Positions 39,581 through 56,419 of a stretch of DNA of 64,000 nt are shown in pieces (within the stretch, counting starts at the first letter, position 1; every line of letters begins with the position of its first letter). The DNA is from a virus. The notes beneath the pieces are model-generated. The model did no database searches, was not told where the DNA came from, and saw only the letters and a list, made by a program, of their open reading frames with translations. Made by a program: the position numbers and the translations under genes. The DNA lies in IMG/VR virus record IMGVR_UViG_3300005534_000001, positions 1 through 64,000 of that record. One strand, given 5' to 3'.

Positions 39581-40282
39581 ATGACCAAACTCAGGTCAGT
39601 AATCTCAATCGTTCTCAGTCTCTCAGCCATCTTCGCTCTGTGCTCTGTGGGCTATTTCTTCATCCATTTAAGCCGAACAGCAGACGCACTGGCAAATACT
39701 CCAGAGAGCGCAAATAGGACGCTTGAATCCATTTCGGCGACATCGGCCAAGCTCTATGATACGACAACCCAATTAAACGATACGATTGCTCTTGCGAATA
39801 AACGACTCTTCGCGGATGGCGGCCTAATCCAAGCAACTCAGAAATCCATCGTGGCCTACAAATCAGTTGCCGTGGAAGCGGCGATAGGCGAGAAAAAGTA
39901 TTGGAATGAACTGGAAACCGGAACGACTGAGGTTCTGGGCAACGCGAATAAGGCGCTCCAAGGATTGACCACGGCAGAAGTTGGAGTAACGGCAGACTTC
40001 CACGAAAGCACGGCTCATCTGAATGCAGCAGTTGACCGAATCGGCCCAATGGTAGACCAGGGCGGGAAAACGCTCAGAACGGCACAAGGCGCAATTGAAG
40101 CCATAGACGTACCAGCGGTAAACGAAAGCCTCAGAAACGCAAGCCTAGCAACGGGGAATGTGGCTGTAGCAACTGGCGACATCAAAGACGCGGTACATCG
40201 GTGGACGAGGCCGGCATCGGTGCTGAAGTCGCTGGCCATTAATCTGTTGGGATTGGCGGGTAGCGCGAGGGCGTTCTTTTGA
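39581..40282 (+). CDS. Single-pass membrane protein with periplasmic coiled coil
   Basis: 233 aa. An N-terminal span (ISIVLSLSAIFALCSVGYFFI) and a long helical Ala/Thr/Asn-rich region with heptads (TLESISATSAKLYDTTTQL; ATGNVAVATGDIKDAV), ending in a second hydrophobic stretch. Recalls MCP-like or DUF948-like proteins without signalling motifs. Followed by a TTGA-overlapped gene. Confidence 0.6.
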   Translation: MTKLRSVISIVLSLSAIFALCSVGYFFIHLSRTADALANTPESANRTLESISATSAKLYDTTTQLNDTIALANKRLFADGGLIQATQKSIVAYKSVAVEAAIGEKKYWNELETGTTEVLGNANKALQGLTTAEVGVTADFHESTAHLNAAVDRIGPMVDQGGKTLRTAQGAIEAIDVPAVNESLRNASLATGNVAVATGDIKDAVHRWTRPASVLKSLAINLLGLAGSARAFF

Positions 40283-43697: not shown

Positions 43698-44105
43698 GTG
43701 ATTACAGCATCTCAAATATTGGCCCATCTCTGGGGCGATTACATTTTCCAGTCCGATTGGATGGCCAACGGTAAAACTAAGTGGTGGTTTCCGTGTGCGA
43801 TGCACGTCCTGTTCTATTGTCCAGCATTCTTGCTTTTCCATCCGAGTTGGCAGGCAATGGCGGTCATCGCAGTGACGCACTATTTCATTGACCGCTATCG
43901 GCTGGCCCGCTTCGTCGTGTTCGCAAAGAACTGGTATCTAAAGAAATTCGATTTCTGGAAGCCGATGCCGGTTGGATGGCAGCATAAAGTAACTCCGACT
44001 GGATACCCAGAGTCAACGCCCGATTGGTTGGCGGTCTGGCTCCTGATCATTGCGGACAATATCCTACATCTGACAATTAACGGTCTTGCGCTGAGGTATC
44101 TGTGA
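43698..44105 (+). CDS. DUF3307 membrane protein, GTG start
   Basis: 135 aa from GTG 43698. ASQILAHLWGDYIFQSDWMA is the DUF3307 signature, followed by AVIAVTHYFIDRYRLARF and a C-terminal span (LLIIADNILHLTINGLAL). About four membrane passes. Found in many phages and bacteria; function not established. Overlaps the next gene (GTGA). Confidence 0.8.
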   Translation: MITASQILAHLWGDYIFQSDWMANGKTKWWFPCAMHVLFYCPAFLLFHPSWQAMAVIAVTHYFIDRYRLARFVVFAKNWYLKKFDFWKPMPVGWQHKVTPTGYPESTPDWLAVWLLIIADNILHLTINGLALRYL

Positions 44106-46000
44106 GCACAACAGCCCCATATCTAATTGATCTTCTGCCAGCCGGCAGCAATGCAACCGTCCTGTTCCATGAAATGGGATGGTTTCAGAAGTCTCCGAAT
44201 GGTCACCGAAATGTCGGCTACAACAGCGACGATCAAGTGACGGTAGATCGGCATCTGGATATGATCTTGGCGTTCGGCAGGGGGATTCCAGCTTCGCGGC
44301 TAGGAGTTATTCTGGACTGGTACGGGCCGGGATTCAAAGACCCATATATTGACAAAGCGGGATTGCTGCTAAAAGCCGGTTGTGAAAAGCGGGGCATGAA
44401 ACTCTCGCTCTGCTTCGATCATGGGATTCCCGATGTTCCAGGAGCAGTCGCATACGCAGCGCAGAATTATTTCGGTTCGCCGGCGTTCTTGCGGCATTCG
44501 AGCGGCAAATTATTTGTCACTGACTTCAACACGTCTGCCGATTGGAATACATTGTCCGCTCAATATGGACTGCATTGCTGCCGATGGACAAACGCGAAGC
44601 CGGGAGGGTACGCATGGATCAAATGTGGCCCTGGCGATAACCCTACGGCAATAGACACCCTTTGCCGTGAAAATCAACTCGTGGAAGTTCCTGGAGTGTG
44701 CGCTGGTTTCGATGACGGAGATCCGGCGAATATGGCGCAATCGAAGTGGGGCGGTCCACGGCGAACGGCTGGGTATGAGAACGGCCAAGCGTGGCTGAGA
44801 ACGTGGAAGAGCGTACCAGTAGAGGCGCAGATCATTCAGGTCATCACATTGAGCGACATTGACGAGAGAACGGGAATAATCGGATGCTTGGGAGAGAGCC
44901 TGCCAGCCGATTGTATTTTGCCGGTCGGCGGAGTAATCCCGAATGTGCTTTCAGGTACCCCGGCGCTCAATCCTCCTAAAATACCGCCCAAGCCTACGCC
45001 AATCCAGCAAGTACCCCCGGCGCCCAAAATCGATTACCAAGCCAACATCCTGAAGGCTGGCGCGTACCTTAGAGCATGCGTTGCCCCAGACGGCGAAATC
45101 CTGATGGCTCTGGACTCGCCAATCGTAAACCCGTATTTCTCGAATCTGGCAGCCCTCGGAATGTGCCATGATCCAGCGTGTATTCCATTTGTCATCAATT
45201 GGATGAAATGGTACATCGCCCATGAGAATTTCCCTGACAAATGGGGTGCGATGGGAACGGTATACGATGCGTCCGAAGTCGGCGGGAAGTCAGTTTCGAG
45301 TAACGGAGCCGATTCAACGGATTCTTACGCAGCAACGTTTCTGAGTGTGGCGTGGGCGCTCTGGAATACTGGCGATGCGACGGCACAGGTTTACGTAAAA
45401 TCTATTATTCCGCAATTGCTTGCAGTCGCTGAAGTAGTGCTTCAAACTCAGCAGCCAGACGGTCTTACATGGGCGCTGCCTAATTATCATCAGAAGTATT
45501 TGATGGACAATTGCGAAGGATACCGAGGTCTTATGGACTTCGCATCTCTGTTGCGCGTGACTGGAGCGCAATATACCGGAGATTATTATGGGCGAAAAGC
45601 ATCCGAAATCCTCAACGGTCTGAAATTCATGTGGCTGGGCAAGTTATGGTCTCCATCCAAAGACGAAGCCGGGACCATCGCACAGCCGAACTTGGCAACT
45701 TGGTATCCCGATGCCGTTTGCCAGTTATTTCCAGCAATGCTTGGCGTTGACCCAAATTCGCAGATCACTTACGCTGCATTCAATAAATCTTGGCCGAAAT
45801 GGTCAACCCTTGAGCACGGATCAGATACTTTCCCTTGGTGCCTCTGTGCTTACGCGGCTGCGATCATGGGCGATACCGTGCGGGCAAACGAGTTTATTAG
45901 CGCAGTCATGGCGAAGTGGGCAAACGGATTTACGTGGCCTTTCTTCTCTGCTGAGGCTGGATGGTTTGCTCTGGCTAATGCTATGATGGGCAAGAAATGA
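44102..46000 (+). CDS. Two-domain glycoside-hydrolase-like protein
   Basis: 632 aa, GTG start. The N-terminal ~280 residues resemble GH71/GH99-type (beta/alpha) barrels: TVLFHEMGWF, IPASRLGVILDWYGPGF, LSLCFDHGIP, and later PGVCAGFDDGDP. A Pro-rich linker (about 285-315) leads to an (alpha/alpha)-toroid-like domain (GAYLRACVAPDGEIL, SVAWALWNTGD, DNCEGYRGLMDFASL) such as seen in glycosidases and lyases. Likely cuts a host or capsule polysaccharide. It is among membrane genes, no signal peptide seen. Family call is by eye. Confidence 0.6.
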   Translation: MSTTAPYLIDLLPAGSNATVLFHEMGWFQKSPNGHRNVGYNSDDQVTVDRHLDMILAFGRGIPASRLGVILDWYGPGFKDPYIDKAGLLLKAGCEKRGMKLSLCFDHGIPDVPGAVAYAAQNYFGSPAFLRHSSGKLFVTDFNTSADWNTLSAQYGLHCCRWTNAKPGGYAWIKCGPGDNPTAIDTLCRENQLVEVPGVCAGFDDGDPANMAQSKWGGPRRTAGYENGQAWLRTWKSVPVEAQIIQVITLSDIDERTGIIGCLGESLPADCILPVGGVIPNVLSGTPALNPPKIPPKPTPIQQVPPAPKIDYQANILKAGAYLRACVAPDGEILMALDSPIVNPYFSNLAALGMCHDPACIPFVINWMKWYIAHENFPDKWGAMGTVYDASEVGGKSVSSNGADSTDSYAATFLSVAWALWNTGDATAQVYVKSIIPQLLAVAEVVLQTQQPDGLTWALPNYHQKYLMDNCEGYRGLMDFASLLRVTGAQYTGDYYGRKASEILNGLKFMWLGKLWSPSKDEAGTIAQPNLATWYPDAVCQLFPAMLGVDPNSQITYAAFNKSWPKWSTLEHGSDTFPWCLCAYAAAIMGDTVRANEFISAVMAKWANGFTWPFFSAEAGWFALANAMMGKK

Positions 46001-46242
46001 GAGATATAGTCGTTGCTCTTCTCGTGATTTTTATTGTCGCACTCGTAGTTTTTACGAGATGGATGAAAACCATCCAGTTGCCGCGATTAATTGCCGAAAG
46101 AACACTGCTAGGAATCCCGAGTGGCCAGAGTTATTGGAGTTGGCCAAAAGACAAGAAACTTGAAAGATTAGTTTCTGAGCGCGAACTGAATAGGTCACAA
46201 ATTAAAATCTTGGAGATGCTTGGATTTATGGTGCATGGATGA
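45997..46242 (+). CDS. Single-pass membrane protein
   Basis: 81 aa. N-terminal span (IVVALLVIFIVALVVF) and a basic soluble part (KKLERLVSERELNRSQI). ATGA-coupled at both ends. Confidence 0.6.
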   Translation: MRDIVVALLVIFIVALVVFTRWMKTIQLPRLIAERTLLGIPSGQSYWSWPKDKKLERLVSERELNRSQIKILEMLGFMVHG

Positions 46243-47294
46243 GCGAACACGATGAACTTCAACAGATTTTAGGGGATTCCGCAGGCCGCATTGACTCAAG
46301 GAATGCCAGAGCAGACCAGTGCGAACCGTCCCAGCCTACTTCGCCAGCGGTAACCGAATCAGCAAAGGTCAATTATGCTCAATGGGAAATTGAGCCGAAT
46401 GACATGTTTTTGGCGACTGGCGGAACTCGTGCCACATTACCACCGGGCGTCTATCGACTACTGGAAGATCAACGCGGAATTCACTTCGCTCGCGCCAATG
46501 TCCTCACAGACAAACTGATTGACCTGCACGATTCGGCTGCCAATGAAATCCTTGATGGCATCCGCACGTTCTGGAAGTCCAAAGCCCATTTCGATGAACT
46601 CGGAATTCTGTACAAGCGCGGTTGTCTGCTCTGGGGGCCGCCTGGTAGCGGCAAGACGGCCACAGTTCAGCGACTCATGAAAGAACTCGTTGATGATGGC
46701 GGGTTTGTGATTCTCTGCGATAGCCCACGATTAGCAGTTCATGCTCTGGCGCAAGTTCGACGCATTGAGCCAGACCGGCGTTTGATCGTTGTCGAGGAAG
46801 ACATTGAGGAAATCATGAACCATCACGGTGAGCATCAATTGCTTGCTTTGCTGGACGGTGAAAACCAGATTGCAAATGTCGTCCACATCGCCACTACGAA
46901 TTATCCCGACCAACTAGGGGCGCGAATCATCAACCGTCCAAGCCGATTCGATGAAGTGAAGAAAATAGGGATGCCGAACGAATGGGCAAGAGCAGCATAT
47001 TTCAAAGCCATTCTCGGCACAGAGAAACTTGCGGATTACGGCGGCGAGGAACGGTGGGTCATGGACACTGAAGGCATGAGTATTGCCCACTTGCGCGAAT
47101 TGGTTGTTGCTGTTTATTGCTTGGGGCGCGGTTACGAAGAAACTCTTGACCGTCTCAAGAAAATGGGAATTAAACCAAAGAGTCATGAAGACGGATTCAG
47201 CAATGGCAGAGACTTCGGTATCGGCGCAGCGGCGAATCAACTTAAATCAACGCCAATGAATGCCCCTGCAAAATCTAACGGCGGATGGCGGTGA
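46239..47294 (+). CDS. AAA+ ATPase, Bcs1-like
   Basis: 351 aa. Walker A GPPGSGKT at 133-140, Walker B RLIVVEEDIEEI near 178-188, HIATTNYPDQLG sensor 1 and RPSRFD with the arginine finger, as in Bcs1/FtsH-type AAA+ proteins. The N-terminal 120 residues are variable. AAA+ enzymes remodel proteins; here it follows a membrane gene and precedes virion genes, so it may act on a membrane complex or in assembly. Distinct from any terminase. Confidence 0.8.
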   Translation: MSEHDELQQILGDSAGRIDSRNARADQCEPSQPTSPAVTESAKVNYAQWEIEPNDMFLATGGTRATLPPGVYRLLEDQRGIHFARANVLTDKLIDLHDSAANEILDGIRTFWKSKAHFDELGILYKRGCLLWGPPGSGKTATVQRLMKELVDDGGFVILCDSPRLAVHALAQVRRIEPDRRLIVVEEDIEEIMNHHGEHQLLALLDGENQIANVVHIATTNYPDQLGARIINRPSRFDEVKKIGMPNEWARAAYFKAILGTEKLADYGGEERWVMDTEGMSIAHLRELVVAVYCLGRGYEETLDRLKKMGIKPKSHEDGFSNGRDFGIGAAANQLKSTPMNAPAKSNGGWR

Positions 47295-48339: not shown

Positions 48340-48744
48340 ATGAGACTCGTTAGAGACGAAAACGGCGAGAGTGTGACTCGCCCATGTGGCCACGATGATT
48401 GGGATAAGCCATCAACATTTCTCGGAGAAACAGGCACCGAACAATTCTCTGTTGTAACCCGCGTGAACGAGGAAAAGATTGGCGAGCATAAGATCCATGA
48501 TCCATTCGTGCGAACGGTGGTAATACTTAGAGGATTTAAGTGGGCATGGAAAGCGCTGTTCGGCGGCCTGACTATCCAAGTCTCGGTCAATTCCAGCGAA
48601 GGCGCATCGCGGGCAATAATGACGCTCAATCCTCATCAACTTCAGGCCGAAACCGAGAAGATGCTGGAAGAGCGCCGACTGAGCCAGGAGGCCCATGCGC
48701 GGGCTGAGGACTACGGGATTTGCCAGATCGCGGGAGAAGCATGA
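48340..48744 (+). CDS. Hypothetical protein
   Basis: 134 aa. HDPFVRTVVILRGFKWAWKALFGG and a C-terminal helix (QAETEKMLEERRLSQEAHARA). No family recognised. Overlaps the terminase small subunit gene (ATGA). Confidence 0.55.
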   Translation: MRLVRDENGESVTRPCGHDDWDKPSTFLGETGTEQFSVVTRVNEEKIGEHKIHDPFVRTVVILRGFKWAWKALFGGLTIQVSVNSSEGASRAIMTLNPHQLQAETEKMLEERRLSQEAHARAEDYGICQIAGEA

Positions 48745-49346
48745 CAGACGATCAATCACCAGAAACTACAAACGAAGAGCAGCCAAAGCCTAAGCGCAGA
48801 CACTTTATCCCCATCAAGGAGTCTCAGCTAGCTAAGAGCACAGCGGCCATTCTCATAGCCGAAGATCTGCTCACCGATGTCAAGATTGCTGAACGTGTCG
48901 GCATCAATCTAAAGACTCTTGGCAACTGGAAGCGCAATGAGCATTTCGCCGCTAAAGTTCTGGAGTACCAGAAAGCTTTTGCCGACCGCGCCCTAAAGCA
49001 TGGATTGGCCAACAAGGAAATCAGACTCCATGAGCTCGACAAGATGTATGCCGACCTGAAGCAGGTTATCCGGGAGCGGGGATCTTCCGAGGAAATGAAG
49101 AAAGTGCCTGGAGGTACTACTGGGCTAATCTGCAAGACCTACAAAGGCATCGGCATTAACCAGCAGGAGATTTTCGAGGTTGACAATCCTACCATCAAGC
49201 AACTGATTGCCATCCATGAGCAATATGCGCAAGAGCTTGGCCAGAAGATTGCCAAGATGGAAGTGGCATTTGGCAGTATTGCTGAGCGCATGGAAGCTGC
49301 TGAAGAGCGACTGAAGAACAGAATCCCGTCAACATGTGTGCAATAG
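48741..49346 (+). CDS. terS: Terminase small subunit (phBC6A51-type HTH)
   Basis: 201 aa from ATG 48741. A helix-turn-helix (VKIAERVGINLKTLGNWKRN) follows a basic N-terminus (KPKRRHF), as in phBC6A51-type small subunits, and helical oligomerisation segments follow (IRLHELDKMYADLKQVIRE). It should recognise the packaging site and hand DNA to the large subunit, whose gene overlaps by 13 bases. Confidence 0.7.
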   Translation: MTDDQSPETTNEEQPKPKRRHFIPIKESQLAKSTAAILIAEDLLTDVKIAERVGINLKTLGNWKRNEHFAAKVLEYQKAFADRALKHGLANKEIRLHELDKMYADLKQVIRERGSSEEMKKVPGGTTGLICKTYKGIGINQQEIFEVDNPTIKQLIAIHEQYAQELGQKIAKMEVAFGSIAERMEAAEERLKNRIPSTCVQ

Positions 49347-51829
49347 CAGCGCAAGAAGAAATCTATAACCGCCTTCATGATCGGCTGCTGGATTTCAAAT
49401 GGGATCCTTATGGATTTGCGCTTTACGCCTATCCTTGGGGTGAGGGGGAGCTGGCGAATTCTGCTGGTCCTCGTACTTGGCAGCGCGAAATCATGGAGAT
49501 TATTGGAGGACATCTCCAGAATCCCCAGACAAGATTTACGCCGTTACAAGTTGCTGTTTGTAGCGGCCACGGGATCGGCAAGCTACACTGTAAATCATTG
49601 GTAATAAATGATTTAAACGGCACAAAAAGATGGGGCGATATTCGGCCTGGGGATTTAGTTTTTGGTGGCGATGGAAGGCCAGTACGAGTCAAGTCCACTC
49701 ATGAGCAAGGAGTAAAGCCAATATATCGGGTTACATTCGATGATGGCTCATACACGCTTGTTGGCCTGGAACATCTATGGAATGTTCGCGGTCGCCAAGA
49801 AAGACGCAAGAAGTTAGAAGGATGGCGAACACTCACAACCGAACAGATTTTAGAGCTTGGAGTTCTGCGATCAAACGGCGTAGCACAGGCAAAGCAATGG
49901 GAAATACCGATTCAAGGGGCAGCGCAATTTGAGGAAAGAGAAATTGACCTTCATCCGTACTTTTTTGGGATATGGCTTGGCGATGGAACTAAAGGAATCC
50001 CGCAATATACTAAACCGTTCCCTGAATTGGTTGAGCGGCTTAGAAGTTTGGGGATGCAAGTCAATGAGCGCCCAGACGGCAAACACAAGAGAGTTATTGG
50101 GATATCTCATCTTCTCACCGATGCAGTCTTCAGTTGTGGCTCCCACGAAAGATACATCCCAGATTCCTACAAATTCAATACCGTTGAAAATCGGCGTGAA
50201 TTGCTTCGCGGCTTACTTGACACGGATGGCGAAGCAAATAGTTCTGGGAGTATTGGATACTCATCTACAAGTAAACGCCTTTGTGAAGATGTAATTTGGC
50301 TTGTCCGCTCTTTGGGCGGCAAGGCGATGATGCAGGATGCGGTAAAACATGGATGGTACCCAGATGGTGAAGGTGGAAGAGTTGAATGCCGGGATTGCTA
50401 CAGGGCCACAATTAACCTCGACTGGAATCCATTCACAATTGAGCATCGGCGAAAGGCGTGGAAACCATCTGAAGAGCGATATCTTAAACGCTGGATTGAG
50501 AGCATTGAGTATTCCCACGATGAGGACGCAATGTGCATCTCTGTTGATGCTCCAGATGGTCTTTATCTTGCCAATGATTTCATCGTAACGCACAATACGA
50601 GCCTGATTGCAATGTTGACTGCATGGGCCAAGAGCACATGCAGGGATTGCCGAGTCAAGATTACAGCGAACACTGGGCCGCAGTTAGACACCATCACAGT
50701 ACCAGAAGTATCAACTTGGTTCAGGCGGTTGATCAATGCGGATTGGTGGGACGTAAAAGCTACTTCGATCAAGGTAAGGGATACTAATTTTGAAAAGACA
50801 TGGCGAACAGATTTTGTCACTTGGAGCGCTAAAAATCCTTCCGCTTTTGCAGGCTTGCACAATTACGGGAAGCGAATCCTCTATATTTTCGATGAGGCAA
50901 GCGGAATTGATGACATTATCTGGGAAACAACGCAAGGTTCCATGTCGGATGAAAATACCGAGATCATCTGGCTTGCCTTCGGAAACCCGATTGAGCGAGA
51001 TGGGAGATTTGCAGAGTGTTTCGGCAAATTCGCCCATCGCTGGGTAAAGAAAAGAATTGATTCACGTACCGTCGAAGGAACCAACAAAGAGGCAATTCAG
51101 AAAGATGTTGACGATTGGGGCGAAGACTCAGACTTCGTTCGCGCTCGATGGCGCGGAGAGTTTCCACGTGCAGGCTCAAGCCAGTTCATCCCAAGTGATT
51201 CTGTAGCCTTCTGCCGAAAGTACAAAGCAACGGGCTACAGCGGCCTGCCAAAGATCATGGCGGTTGACGTGGCGCGGTTTGGCGATGATCAAACGACCAT
51301 CGGGTATCGGCAGGGAAGAAAGGCAGTCATTCTCGCAAAGTATCGCGGATTGGACACGGTTCAGGTAGCAGAACATGTTATTGAGTTTATGGAATCCGAA
51401 GATCCCGATGCAGTGGTCATCGACGGTGATGGTCTCGGTGCCGGAGTGGTCGATCACATTAAGCACCGTGGATTTGGGAAGAAAGTTTTCGAGTTTCATG
51501 GAGGGGCCACGCCGAACGATGTAGCGAAGTATTTCAATCGCCGTGCTGAGATTTGGGGATTAGGCCGTGACGCTCTTAAGGCAGGAATGGAAATTCCCGA
51601 TGATCCTGAGCTCGACTCTGACTTGACCGGAATAAAGTACGGATTTGGACCGAAGGGCCAGATTCAACTTGAGCGCAAAGAGGATATGAAGAAACGCGGA
51701 TTGAAGAGCCCAGATCTTGGAGATATGCTTATGATGACATTCGCAGTTAGGATCATGGCGAAAAAGAAAGAGACTGCGACTCGGCCAGTTCTTTCGAGTT
51801 ATGCTGGTAATTCTTGGATGGGAGCATGA
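49334..51829 (+). CDS. terL: Terminase large subunit interrupted by an intein
   Basis: 831 codons: extein-N (1-83), intein (84-421), extein-C (422-831), giving a mature 493-aa TerL. The joined Walker A reads SGHGIGK-TSL, cut between Lys83 and Thr422. Walker B with catalytic Glu is LYIFDEASG (D520-E521). The nuclease domain follows with MAVDVARFGDDQT (about 640), AVVIDGDGLGAG and DLGDMLMM, the three acidic blocks of RNase-H-type terminases. It cuts concatemers and drives ATP-dependent packaging into the portal. The intein must splice for ATPase activity. Confidence 0.95.
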   Translation: MCAIAAQEEIYNRLHDRLLDFKWDPYGFALYAYPWGEGELANSAGPRTWQREIMEIIGGHLQNPQTRFTPLQVAVCSGHGIGKLHCKSLVINDLNGTKRWGDIRPGDLVFGGDGRPVRVKSTHEQGVKPIYRVTFDDGSYTLVGLEHLWNVRGRQERRKKLEGWRTLTTEQILELGVLRSNGVAQAKQWEIPIQGAAQFEEREIDLHPYFFGIWLGDGTKGIPQYTKPFPELVERLRSLGMQVNERPDGKHKRVIGISHLLTDAVFSCGSHERYIPDSYKFNTVENRRELLRGLLDTDGEANSSGSIGYSSTSKRLCEDVIWLVRSLGGKAMMQDAVKHGWYPDGEGGRVECRDCYRATINLDWNPFTIEHRRKAWKPSEERYLKRWIESIEYSHDEDAMCISVDAPDGLYLANDFIVTHNTSLIAMLTAWAKSTCRDCRVKITANTGPQLDTITVPEVSTWFRRLINADWWDVKATSIKVRDTNFEKTWRTDFVTWSAKNPSAFAGLHNYGKRILYIFDEASGIDDIIWETTQGSMSDENTEIIWLAFGNPIERDGRFAECFGKFAHRWVKKRIDSRTVEGTNKEAIQKDVDDWGEDSDFVRARWRGEFPRAGSSQFIPSDSVAFCRKYKATGYSGLPKIMAVDVARFGDDQTTIGYRQGRKAVILAKYRGLDTVQVAEHVIEFMESEDPDAVVIDGDGLGAGVVDHIKHRGFGKKVFEFHGGATPNDVAKYFNRRAEIWGLGRDALKAGMEIPDDPELDSDLTGIKYGFGPKGQIQLERKEDMKKRGLKSPDLGDMLMMTFAVRIMAKKKETATRPVLSSYAGNSWMGA
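49583..50596 (+). other. Class 3 intein with LAGLIDADG homing nuclease
   Basis: 338 aa. Block A starts with Leu (LHCKSLVIND) rather than Cys or Ser. Block B has GLEHLW (His64, Trp66), block F MCISV with Cys318, block G VTHN (Thr336, His337, Asn338), then +1 Thr. Trp, Cys and Thr are the class 3 triad, in which the block F Cys makes the branch. Between lie DOD homing motifs: FFGIWLGDG and LLRGLLDTDGEA. Insertion directly after the Walker A lysine is a usual target. Confidence 0.9.
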
Positions 51830-54103: not shown

Positions 54104-56419
54104 ATGCCAGCCCTCGTAGAAGCCACAGGTAGCCCCAAGCAAAAAGAAATAGATGAAGAAGAGCAAGCCAGAATTGATCTGGATGCTTTTCTGACTCTTG
54201 CGCGCAAGCGTTTCTCTATTGCTGAAGAGGCTGAGGCAGAAAACCGCAAAGCTTCTCTTGAAGATCTGGAATTTTTCACTGGAGAGCAGTGGCCGAACGA
54301 TGTCAAGGCCGCAAGAAGCGCCGATGGACGCCCATGCCTCACAATCAATCGGCTCAAGGGCATAAAGAATCAAGTCACGAACGAGCAGAGGCAGCAGAGG
54401 CCAGCAATTCAAGTAAACCCTCGTGGAGACGGAGCCAGCACGGAGACCGCCGAAGTCTATCAAGGGATAATACGAGACATTGAGGTAAACTCTGACGCTG
54501 AAATTGCCTATGACAGTTCATTCGAAGGAATGGTCATCGGTGGATTCTCGTACTTCCGCGTTCTCACTGATTACCTTCCCGGATTAAGTTTTGAGCAGGA
54601 ACTTAAGATCAAGCGGATCAAAAATCCCTTCACGGTTTACTTTGATCCAACCTGCATTGAACCTGATTATTCCGATGCAAACTGGGCCTTCATCATCGAA
54701 GACCTGTCGAAACAGGAATACAAAGCGCAGTTTCCTAAGTCTGAAGCCGCTTCGATGGTGGACTTCAGCAGTATTGGAGATCAATCGCCGGGATGGGCCG
54801 CAAAAGAGACAATTCGCATCGCTGAGTACTTCCATGTTGAGCACGATACCCAGCCGATTGTGCTTCTTGATGATAATCGCGTGATGCTCAAAGAACATGC
54901 GCCAAAAGATGCGGTAATCGTTAAATCCAGAGACATGATAGTTCGCCGCGTGGTCTGGACAAAGATCAATGCCATCGAGAAATTGAAAGAGACTTCTTGG
55001 CTTGGCCAGTGGATACCGATTATCCCGGTACTCGGCGACGATCTGGACGTAAACGGGAAAAGGTACCTTGCTGGATTGATCAGAAACGCAAAAGACGCAC
55101 AAAAGCAATACAACTACATGAACTCGGCGGCCACAGAGCAGATTGCATTGGCCACTAAAGCCCCATATTTGGCAGTGGAAGGCCAGATGGAAGGCTTTGA
55201 GAAAATGTGGGAACAGGCCAATGTCAGGAATTTCTCGTTCCTGTATTACAAGGCTGTTGATGTTCAAGGTAAACCCGCTCCTCCTCCGACACGCAATGCG
55301 GTAGAGCCACCTATTCAGGCAATGGCAGTGATGATCAGGCAGGCTGACAATGACCTGAAAAGTACTACAGGCATTTATGACGCATCTTTGGGGGAAAGAG
55401 GGCCAGACCAGTCAGGGAAGGCGATTCTAGCTCGACAGAAGCAGGGAGACGTTGCCACGCTCAACTTTAGCGACAATCTGGCGCGGTCGATTCGCTTTCT
55501 TGGCAAGCAATTGGTGGATTTGATTCCGAGAGTTTATACCGCAGCGCGAATCCAAAGAATCATCAAGCCAGATCAAACGGTTGATCATGTGGGAATATGG
55601 AATTCCTCAATGCATGATGCCGGTACCGACCCGCGCACATTGCCGGGAATGACCGATCCGTCAATCAAGAGGATCTTTGACATTGGTACAGGGCGCTACG
55701 ATGTAACGGTATCGGTTGGGCCTTCATATCAGTCGAAGAGGCAGGAAGCAGTTTCTTCGCAACTTGCGCTCATTCAGGCTGACCCTGATATTTTGAAGGT
55801 CGCTGGCGATCTGCTAATCAGGAACATGGATTGGCCGGGATCAAAAGAAATTGCTGACAGAGTAAAGAAGATGTTGCCTCCACAATTGCAAGACGATAAT
55901 GGAGATCCAGCAGCGCAACTCCAGAAGGCGCAATCTCAACTTCAGCAACTAAATCAGCAGCATGAATTATTGACTCAGCATCTTACTGCTGCCAATGAAA
56001 CGATCAAATCTAAGCAACAAGAGCAAGAGGCCAAGATGTCCATCGCCAAGGCTCAGATTGATGCCGATTTGATCAAGACGAAACTGGAACTTGAGAATAA
56101 ATTGGCGATTGCCGAAATCACTACCAAGGCCCAAGACCGTCAGCAGAGAGCTCAATTAGAACAGGATATGTGGATGGCGCTGCACAATTCGGCGCACGAT
56201 GCGGCAACTCAAGCGACAGATCAAACGCACGAAGCGGGAATGCAGACTGCCGACCAGCAGCATGAAGCACAACTTCAGCAAGCCCAACAGCAACATGAAG
56301 GCGAACAGGCCACCCAATCCCAAGGTGCAGAAGCAGACCAAGCTACTCAGGCCCAAGCAGCCGCACAACAGCAACAAGAATCGGCGCAAGCCGCAGAACC
56401 TCAAACTCCAGGAGAATAA
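54104..56419 (+). CDS. Portal protein, P22-like
   Basis: 771 aa. EDLEFFTGEQWP near the N-terminus, RPCLTINRLKGIKNQVTNEQRQQRP, then FEGMVIGGFSYFRV and FTVYFDPTCIEPDYSDANW are the order of P22-like portals. The C-terminal ~150 residues are Gln/Ala-rich coiled coil, the portal barrel or a tail. Forms the dodecameric ring at one vertex through which DNA passes. Confidence 0.9.
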   Translation: MPALVEATGSPKQKEIDEEEQARIDLDAFLTLARKRFSIAEEAEAENRKASLEDLEFFTGEQWPNDVKAARSADGRPCLTINRLKGIKNQVTNEQRQQRPAIQVNPRGDGASTETAEVYQGIIRDIEVNSDAEIAYDSSFEGMVIGGFSYFRVLTDYLPGLSFEQELKIKRIKNPFTVYFDPTCIEPDYSDANWAFIIEDLSKQEYKAQFPKSEAASMVDFSSIGDQSPGWAAKETIRIAEYFHVEHDTQPIVLLDDNRVMLKEHAPKDAVIVKSRDMIVRRVVWTKINAIEKLKETSWLGQWIPIIPVLGDDLDVNGKRYLAGLIRNAKDAQKQYNYMNSAATEQIALATKAPYLAVEGQMEGFEKMWEQANVRNFSFLYYKAVDVQGKPAPPPTRNAVEPPIQAMAVMIRQADNDLKSTTGIYDASLGERGPDQSGKAILARQKQGDVATLNFSDNLARSIRFLGKQLVDLIPRVYTAARIQRIIKPDQTVDHVGIWNSSMHDAGTDPRTLPGMTDPSIKRIFDIGTGRYDVTVSVGPSYQSKRQEAVSSQLALIQADPDILKVAGDLLIRNMDWPGSKEIADRVKKMLPPQLQDDNGDPAAQLQKAQSQLQQLNQQHELLTQHLTAANETIKSKQQEQEAKMSIAKAQIDADLIKTKLELENKLAIAEITTKAQDRQQRAQLEQDMWMALHNSAHDAATQATDQTHEAGMQTADQQHEAQLQQAQQQHEGEQATQSQGAEADQATQAQAAAQQQQESAQAAEPQTPGE

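Follow-up and report, generated by a model that had tools for sequence, protein, structure and literature searches.

A candidate class 3 homing intein between the Walker A lysine and threonine of an epsilon15-type phage terminase

Terminase inteins make up the largest intein group in the mycobacteriophages, and the site designated TerL1-a lies between the invariant lysine and threonine of the large subunit (PMC5050341). Five representatives of these TerL inteins have been found to splice, and to do so quickly, and two of their nucleases cut intein-free alleles (PMC5050341). Class 3 inteins are defined by a Trp at B:12, a Cys at F:4, and a Thr at G:5, with no nucleophile at residue 1 and usually a Ser or Thr at the +1 position (PMC5222942), and the structure of the MchDnaB1 intein shows a protease-like triad made up of Cys, His, and Thr (PMC7664689). 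The one redox switch described for class 3 inteins, that of DnaBi1, requires a second cysteine, Cys48 (PMC6195587). We describe here a terminase gene in which an intein with the class 3 residues and a LAGLIDADG endonuclease parts the Walker A Lys from its Thr. The source is a virus contig of metagenomic origin, with no phage in culture, and we refer to the 64,000-nucleotide stretch that was analysed, taken from a 92.5-kb record, as the window.

The interrupted terminase gene and the boundary of the intein

The TerL precursor is encoded on the + strand, as are the small subunit and portal proteins of the neighboring genes, in a single uninterrupted frame of 831 codons (49334–51829; 831 aa). The N-extein of 83 aa (49334–49582) ends in VAVCSGHGIGK, with SGHGIGK at 49562–49582, and is followed by the 338-residue intein, which runs from LHCKSL to VTHN (49583–50596; precursor residues 84–421), and by a C-extein of 410 aa (50597–51829; residues 422–831) in which the +1 Thr is the Walker A Thr, and which includes the Walker B sequence IFDEA and a nuclease domain. 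When joined, the two exteins match the terminase large subunit family phrog_2 (E 1.5e-34) and phrog_5902 (E 7e-58) among the PHROGs and have no match in Pfam. Relatives of the exteins in named phages include the TerLs of Pseudomonas phage AF (45%) and Salmonella phage epsilon15 (44%), and by sequence the interrupted host protein is classed as an epsilon15-type terminase large subunit. The gene is flanked by a terminase small subunit gene that overlaps the start of TerL (48741–49346; phrog_7344, E 1.6e-8) and by a gene for a P22-like portal protein (54104–56419; PF16510, E 3e-165). The 92.5-kb record contains neither a second, intein-free TerL nor a second intein of the same family, and cultured phage records hold no DNA nearly identical to positions 40001–64000. 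The same phage encodes an AAA-type ATPase (46239–47294) with an intact P-loop, GPPGSGKT, that carries no intein, and, ahead of the packaging genes, a protein of 632 aa (44102–46000) with no PHROGs or Pfam match at an E value of 0.001.

The position of the intein is defined by comparison with uninterrupted terminases. In the window the flanks read AVCSGHGIGK/TSLIAM, so that the Walker A Lys is the final residue of the N-extein and directly precedes the intein. Among the 80 TerLs in the viral collection nearest to the C-extein (50–69% identical), 79 have an empty, contiguous G-x-GK-[S/T], and the remaining one reaches the end of its contig before the site. Removal of the segment from Leu1 onwards is the only one that restores the uninterrupted Walker A motif of these intein-free relatives, and the boundary is thereby fixed, on sequence grounds, with a start at Leu1, an end at Asn338, and the Walker A Thr at +1. 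The coordinates and length given by the first-pass annotation, as well as its placement of the insertion directly after the catalytic Lys, are thus exact, and a shifted boundary with Cys, Ser, or Ala at position 1, which it had named as grounds for abandoning its interpretation, is excluded by the 79 empty sites. By calculation the precursor weighs 94.2 kDa, spliced TerL 55.5 kDa, and the intein 38.7 kDa, the last two close to the approximately 55 and 38 kDa that had been anticipated for them.

Class assignment and the endonuclease domain

The intein has a Leu at residue 1, where a class 1 intein has Cys, Ser, or Thr and a class 3 intein has none of these, and the residues that characterize class 3 are all in place. 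Block B contains His64-Leu65-Trp66 (49772–49780), supplying the B:10 His and B:12 Trp; Cys318 (50534–50536) is the predicted F:4 nucleophile of class 3 splicing; and block G ends the intein with Thr336-His337-Asn338 (50588–50596), which provide the G:5 Thr, the penultimate His, and the terminal Asn ahead of the +1 Thr. The best three phmmer matches in the PDB are the class 3 DnaB inteins 6RIX, 6RIY, and 6BS8, in a register that sets residue 13 on residue 13, Cys318 on the block F Cys (including that of MchDnaB1), and the terminal THN on THN. The relationship to other inteins is not a chance resemblance, since tblastn matches to phage TerLs reach an E value of 4e-49 over 95% of the intein and a profile search of its own genome returns it with an E value of 2e-173.

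The census of relatives, which comprised one alignment-based scan each of viral and genome collections together with earlier loci, yielded 70 distinct inteins at 86 loci. His64, Trp66, Cys318, Thr336, His337, and Asn338 are invariant in all 70, although the search patterns for the genome collection, which contributed four loci only, included the block B His and Trp. The second LAGLIDADG motif, unlike the class 3 residues, was part of the viral search patterns, and the invariance of D213/D215 is therefore partly imposed. Residue 1 is Ala in 42 of the inteins, Gly in 11, Leu in seven, Glu in five, Met in two, Val in two, and Gln in one, and is never Cys, Ser, or Thr; a Leu at this position is unusual, but it is not unique. 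GK precedes every insertion and the +1 residue is Ser in 51 and Thr in 19; the script that located the borders was keyed on GK and HN, and no locus was lost through lack of either. Judged by these sequence features the intein belongs to class 3, and the proposal that it is a class 3 intein with a WCT triad is borne out by its residues, by their invariance in the 70 relatives, and by the alignment with 6RIX and 6BS8; Leu1, W66, C318, T336, H337, N338, and the +1 Thr are each present as originally named. The Asp of the block B DxxH motif is helpful in a studied class 3 intein. DnaBi1 has this Asp, whereas the window's intein has Gly61 (49763–49765), a substitution that is probably without consequence for splicing because Ser or Gly is usual there in the intein family, in which position 61 is mostly Ser, followed by Gly, Asp, Cys, or Thr.

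Both motifs of a LAGLIDADG homing endonuclease are present with their catalytic acidic residues. The first, PYFFGIWLGDG (49955–49987), includes D134, which is kept in 65 of the 70 inteins, and the second, LRGLLDTDG (50204–50230), includes D213 and D215 and coincides with a Pfam LAGLIDADG_3 match at intein residues 204–247 (E 3e-5, above the curated cut-off). An AlphaFold2 model of the intein has a pTM of 0.83 and a mean pLDDT of 82, with the first LAGLIDADG helix (residues 132–138) below a pLDDT of 50. Foldseek matches the model to PI-SceI over its whole length (E 3e-14), to the MchDnaB1 class 3 intein with a target TM of 0.79, and to I-DmoI; the rank order does not decide the intein class, as the class 1 intein PI-SceI heads the list by virtue of being the only match to cover both domains. 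The two motifs, their aspartates, the Pfam match, and the similarity to the PI-SceI and I-DmoI folds agree with the two-motif nuclease named in the first-pass annotation.

Lateral spread of the intein

The first-pass annotation described class 3 inteins as a minority type, and while this is appropriate for inteins overall, it does not describe the relatives of this one, which are common in phages (767 records). A phage origin of class 3 inteins has reportedly been proposed in one paper. As a rule, an intein shows no higher conservation than the active-site region of the protein that hosts it. The inteins nearest to that of the window are 58–62% identical to it, while their TerLs are only 36–46% identical to the window TerL, and this greater similarity of inteins than of hosts, set against the usual degree of intein conservation, points to homing. 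No intein interrupts the nearest TerL (65%), and the closest of the intein-bearing TerLs (L072, 54%) carries a distant intein (35%). Phylogenies, both from quick searches with SH-aLRT support only, place the window's intein with those of two loci, L026 and L002 (96%), and the window TerL inside a group composed almost wholly of empty TerLs (98%). On the TerL data, a tree constrained to unite the window with both L026 and L002 is worse by 334 log units (AU p 8e-53), and uniting the window with L026 alone gives an AU p of 6e-35, the group tested having been picked from the intein tree and not from the TerL tree. From these sequence comparisons the intein is assigned as laterally acquired, having moved among distantly related terminases.

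The same intein family occupies GK/T or GK/S in other ATPases, including PhoH and DnaB-like and SNF2 helicases. One relative (L090, 1480–4500) lies in a family A DNA polymerase (PF00476, E 1e-104) at EERDLGK/TFNFAQIYG, which is not a P-loop. Because the GK/T of this polymerase is no Walker A loop, this one example hints that the local GK/T peptide or its codons, rather than ATPase function, may guide insertion.

Several related terminases have further peculiarities. One TerL (L030, 2593–6285) is interrupted twice, in Walker A by a class 3 intein (GHGIGK/EMPKSLIINDLNG.., with a +1 Thr) and at Walker B, between FDEA and S, by an intein that looks like class 1 (CHDEETEVLT..). Another, encoded by a frame starting at position 1 of its contig (L006), has a Walker A class 3 intein and a second, class 1-like intein (CFIAGT..VQN/C) in the C-terminal nuclease domain at SPD/CGDSLAL. 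In a contig of Samsonia erythrinae (L096) the TerL frame stops soon after its class 3 intein (549 aa), perhaps through faulty assembly or because the terminase is that of a disrupted prophage.

Splicing, regulation, and described class 3 terminase inteins

We consider it very probable that a full-length class 3 LAGLIDADG intein inserted itself into the Walker A codons of the TerL gene in this phage, and that it splices and homes as follows. With 338 residues separating the P-loop Lys from the Thr, the 94-kDa precursor should lack ATPase activity. By analogy with studied class 3 inteins, Cys318, activated by His64 and Thr336, would attack the Lys-Leu bond and take the N-extein, which would then be transferred to the +1 Thr, the same residue as the Walker A Thr. 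Asn338 would cyclise and the exteins would be joined, giving a TerL of 55 kDa in which SGHGIGKTS is restored, and the freed 39-kDa intein would act as a homing nuclease, cutting intein-free TerL genes at the conserved GK-S/T codons and copying itself in. The present analysis contributes the sequence, the boundary, the conserved catalytic set, the fold prediction, the empty sites, and the lateral spread, and the chemistry, the rapid splicing, and the nuclease activity are presumed from the class 3 and TerL inteins that have been studied.

Because the intein sits inside Walker A and the record has no other TerL, the ATPase activity of its only TerL should need prior splicing, and to this extent the site itself favors the earlier suggestion that the packaging ATPase depends on splicing. 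The accompanying suggestion that splicing times or gates packaging fares less well, and a regulatory switch in which redox state, metal, temperature, or infection stage holds splicing back until the packaging ATPase is wanted seems to us highly improbable. Such a switch would gain from the dependence of ATPase activity on splicing that the insertion site creates, from the precedent of DnaBi1, a P-loop class 3 intein that is reversibly blocked when its block F Cys is oxidized (PMC6195587), and from the proximity of Cys3 to the splice junction. However, the intein is sporadic, and since the nearest TerLs lack it, packaging does not need an intein switch; Cys3 is present in only six of the 70 relatives; splicing was quick in the five mycobacteriophage TerL inteins studied as representatives; and in both distribution and phylogeny the intein behaves as a homing parasite. 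A redox switch modelled specifically on Msm DnaBi1 was rejected, as the partner Cys48 is replaced by Ile47. We give marginally less credence still to the fuller proposal that Cys318-dependent splicing answers an intracellular signal and times the packaging ATPase, as a post-translational timer for phage packaging. Comparably implausible is a decayed intein that has lost splicing and left the phage, like a degraded prophage, with a dead TerL. Arth_1007 is a precedent for a class 3 intein pseudogene (PMC3196547), but here all of the catalytic residues of the intein and the endonuclease are intact, the 831-codon frame is unbroken, the neighboring TerS and portal genes are both intact, and the record has no second TerL. 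Least credible of all is a class 1 intein with its start shifted to Cys3 (CKSLVIND...), which is followed by a block A-like stretch, but which would leave an extra Leu-His within the Walker A loop that is seen in no intein-free relative, would depend on a position that is not conserved, and would disregard a class 3 W, C, and T that are all present and invariant.

The intein, in our favored interpretation an active class 3 homing element, has several counterparts by sequence. One is in Salmonella phage PAT1 (Uetakevirus, MT261384), with matching inteins in Citrobacter and Pseudescherichia prophages, which resemble that of the window in TerL type, in the GHGIGK/S site, in the class 3 residues, and in the LAGLIDADG motifs. 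The PAT1 intein and extein are 38% and 42% identical to those of the window, respectively, but the PAT1 intein differs in having Ala at residue 1, Ser at +1, a length of 322 aa, and a place on another branch of the intein tree. The TerL1-a intein of mycobacteriophage Henry likewise lies between the Walker A Lys and Thr with the class 3 WCT/THN set and a Thr at +1, although it is in another TerL family, starts with Ala, and is a distant intein (26.8% identity by tblastn). The gp17 intein of the T4-like Escherichia phage MIZ4 has the same class 3 set at SRQLGK/T, but in a T4-type TerL and with a distant sequence (28%), and the terminase of Bacteroides phage B124-14 has a class 3 intein between Lys and Thr or Lys and Ser. 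The mycobacterial DnaB class 3 inteins (MchDnaB1, 6RIX; Msm DnaBi1, 6BS8) are also inserted in a P-loop ATPase, with the P-loop Ser at +1 (PMC6195587), but they are mini-inteins without an endonuclease and have Ala at residue 1. As it is present in Henry, MIZ4, B124-14, and PAT1, a class 3 terminase intein at Lys/Thr or Lys/Ser is, by its sequence signature, already known and not new. The picture of inteins is thus unchanged, and what the locus adds is a well-delimited class 3 intein with close relatives and intein-free TerL alleles, beyond the mycobacteriophages in which terminase inteins have been studied, together with documentation of the lateral movement of its lineage among distantly related terminases. 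It should be useful for tracing class 3 inteins and as a candidate that combines Thr at +1 with Leu at residue 1.
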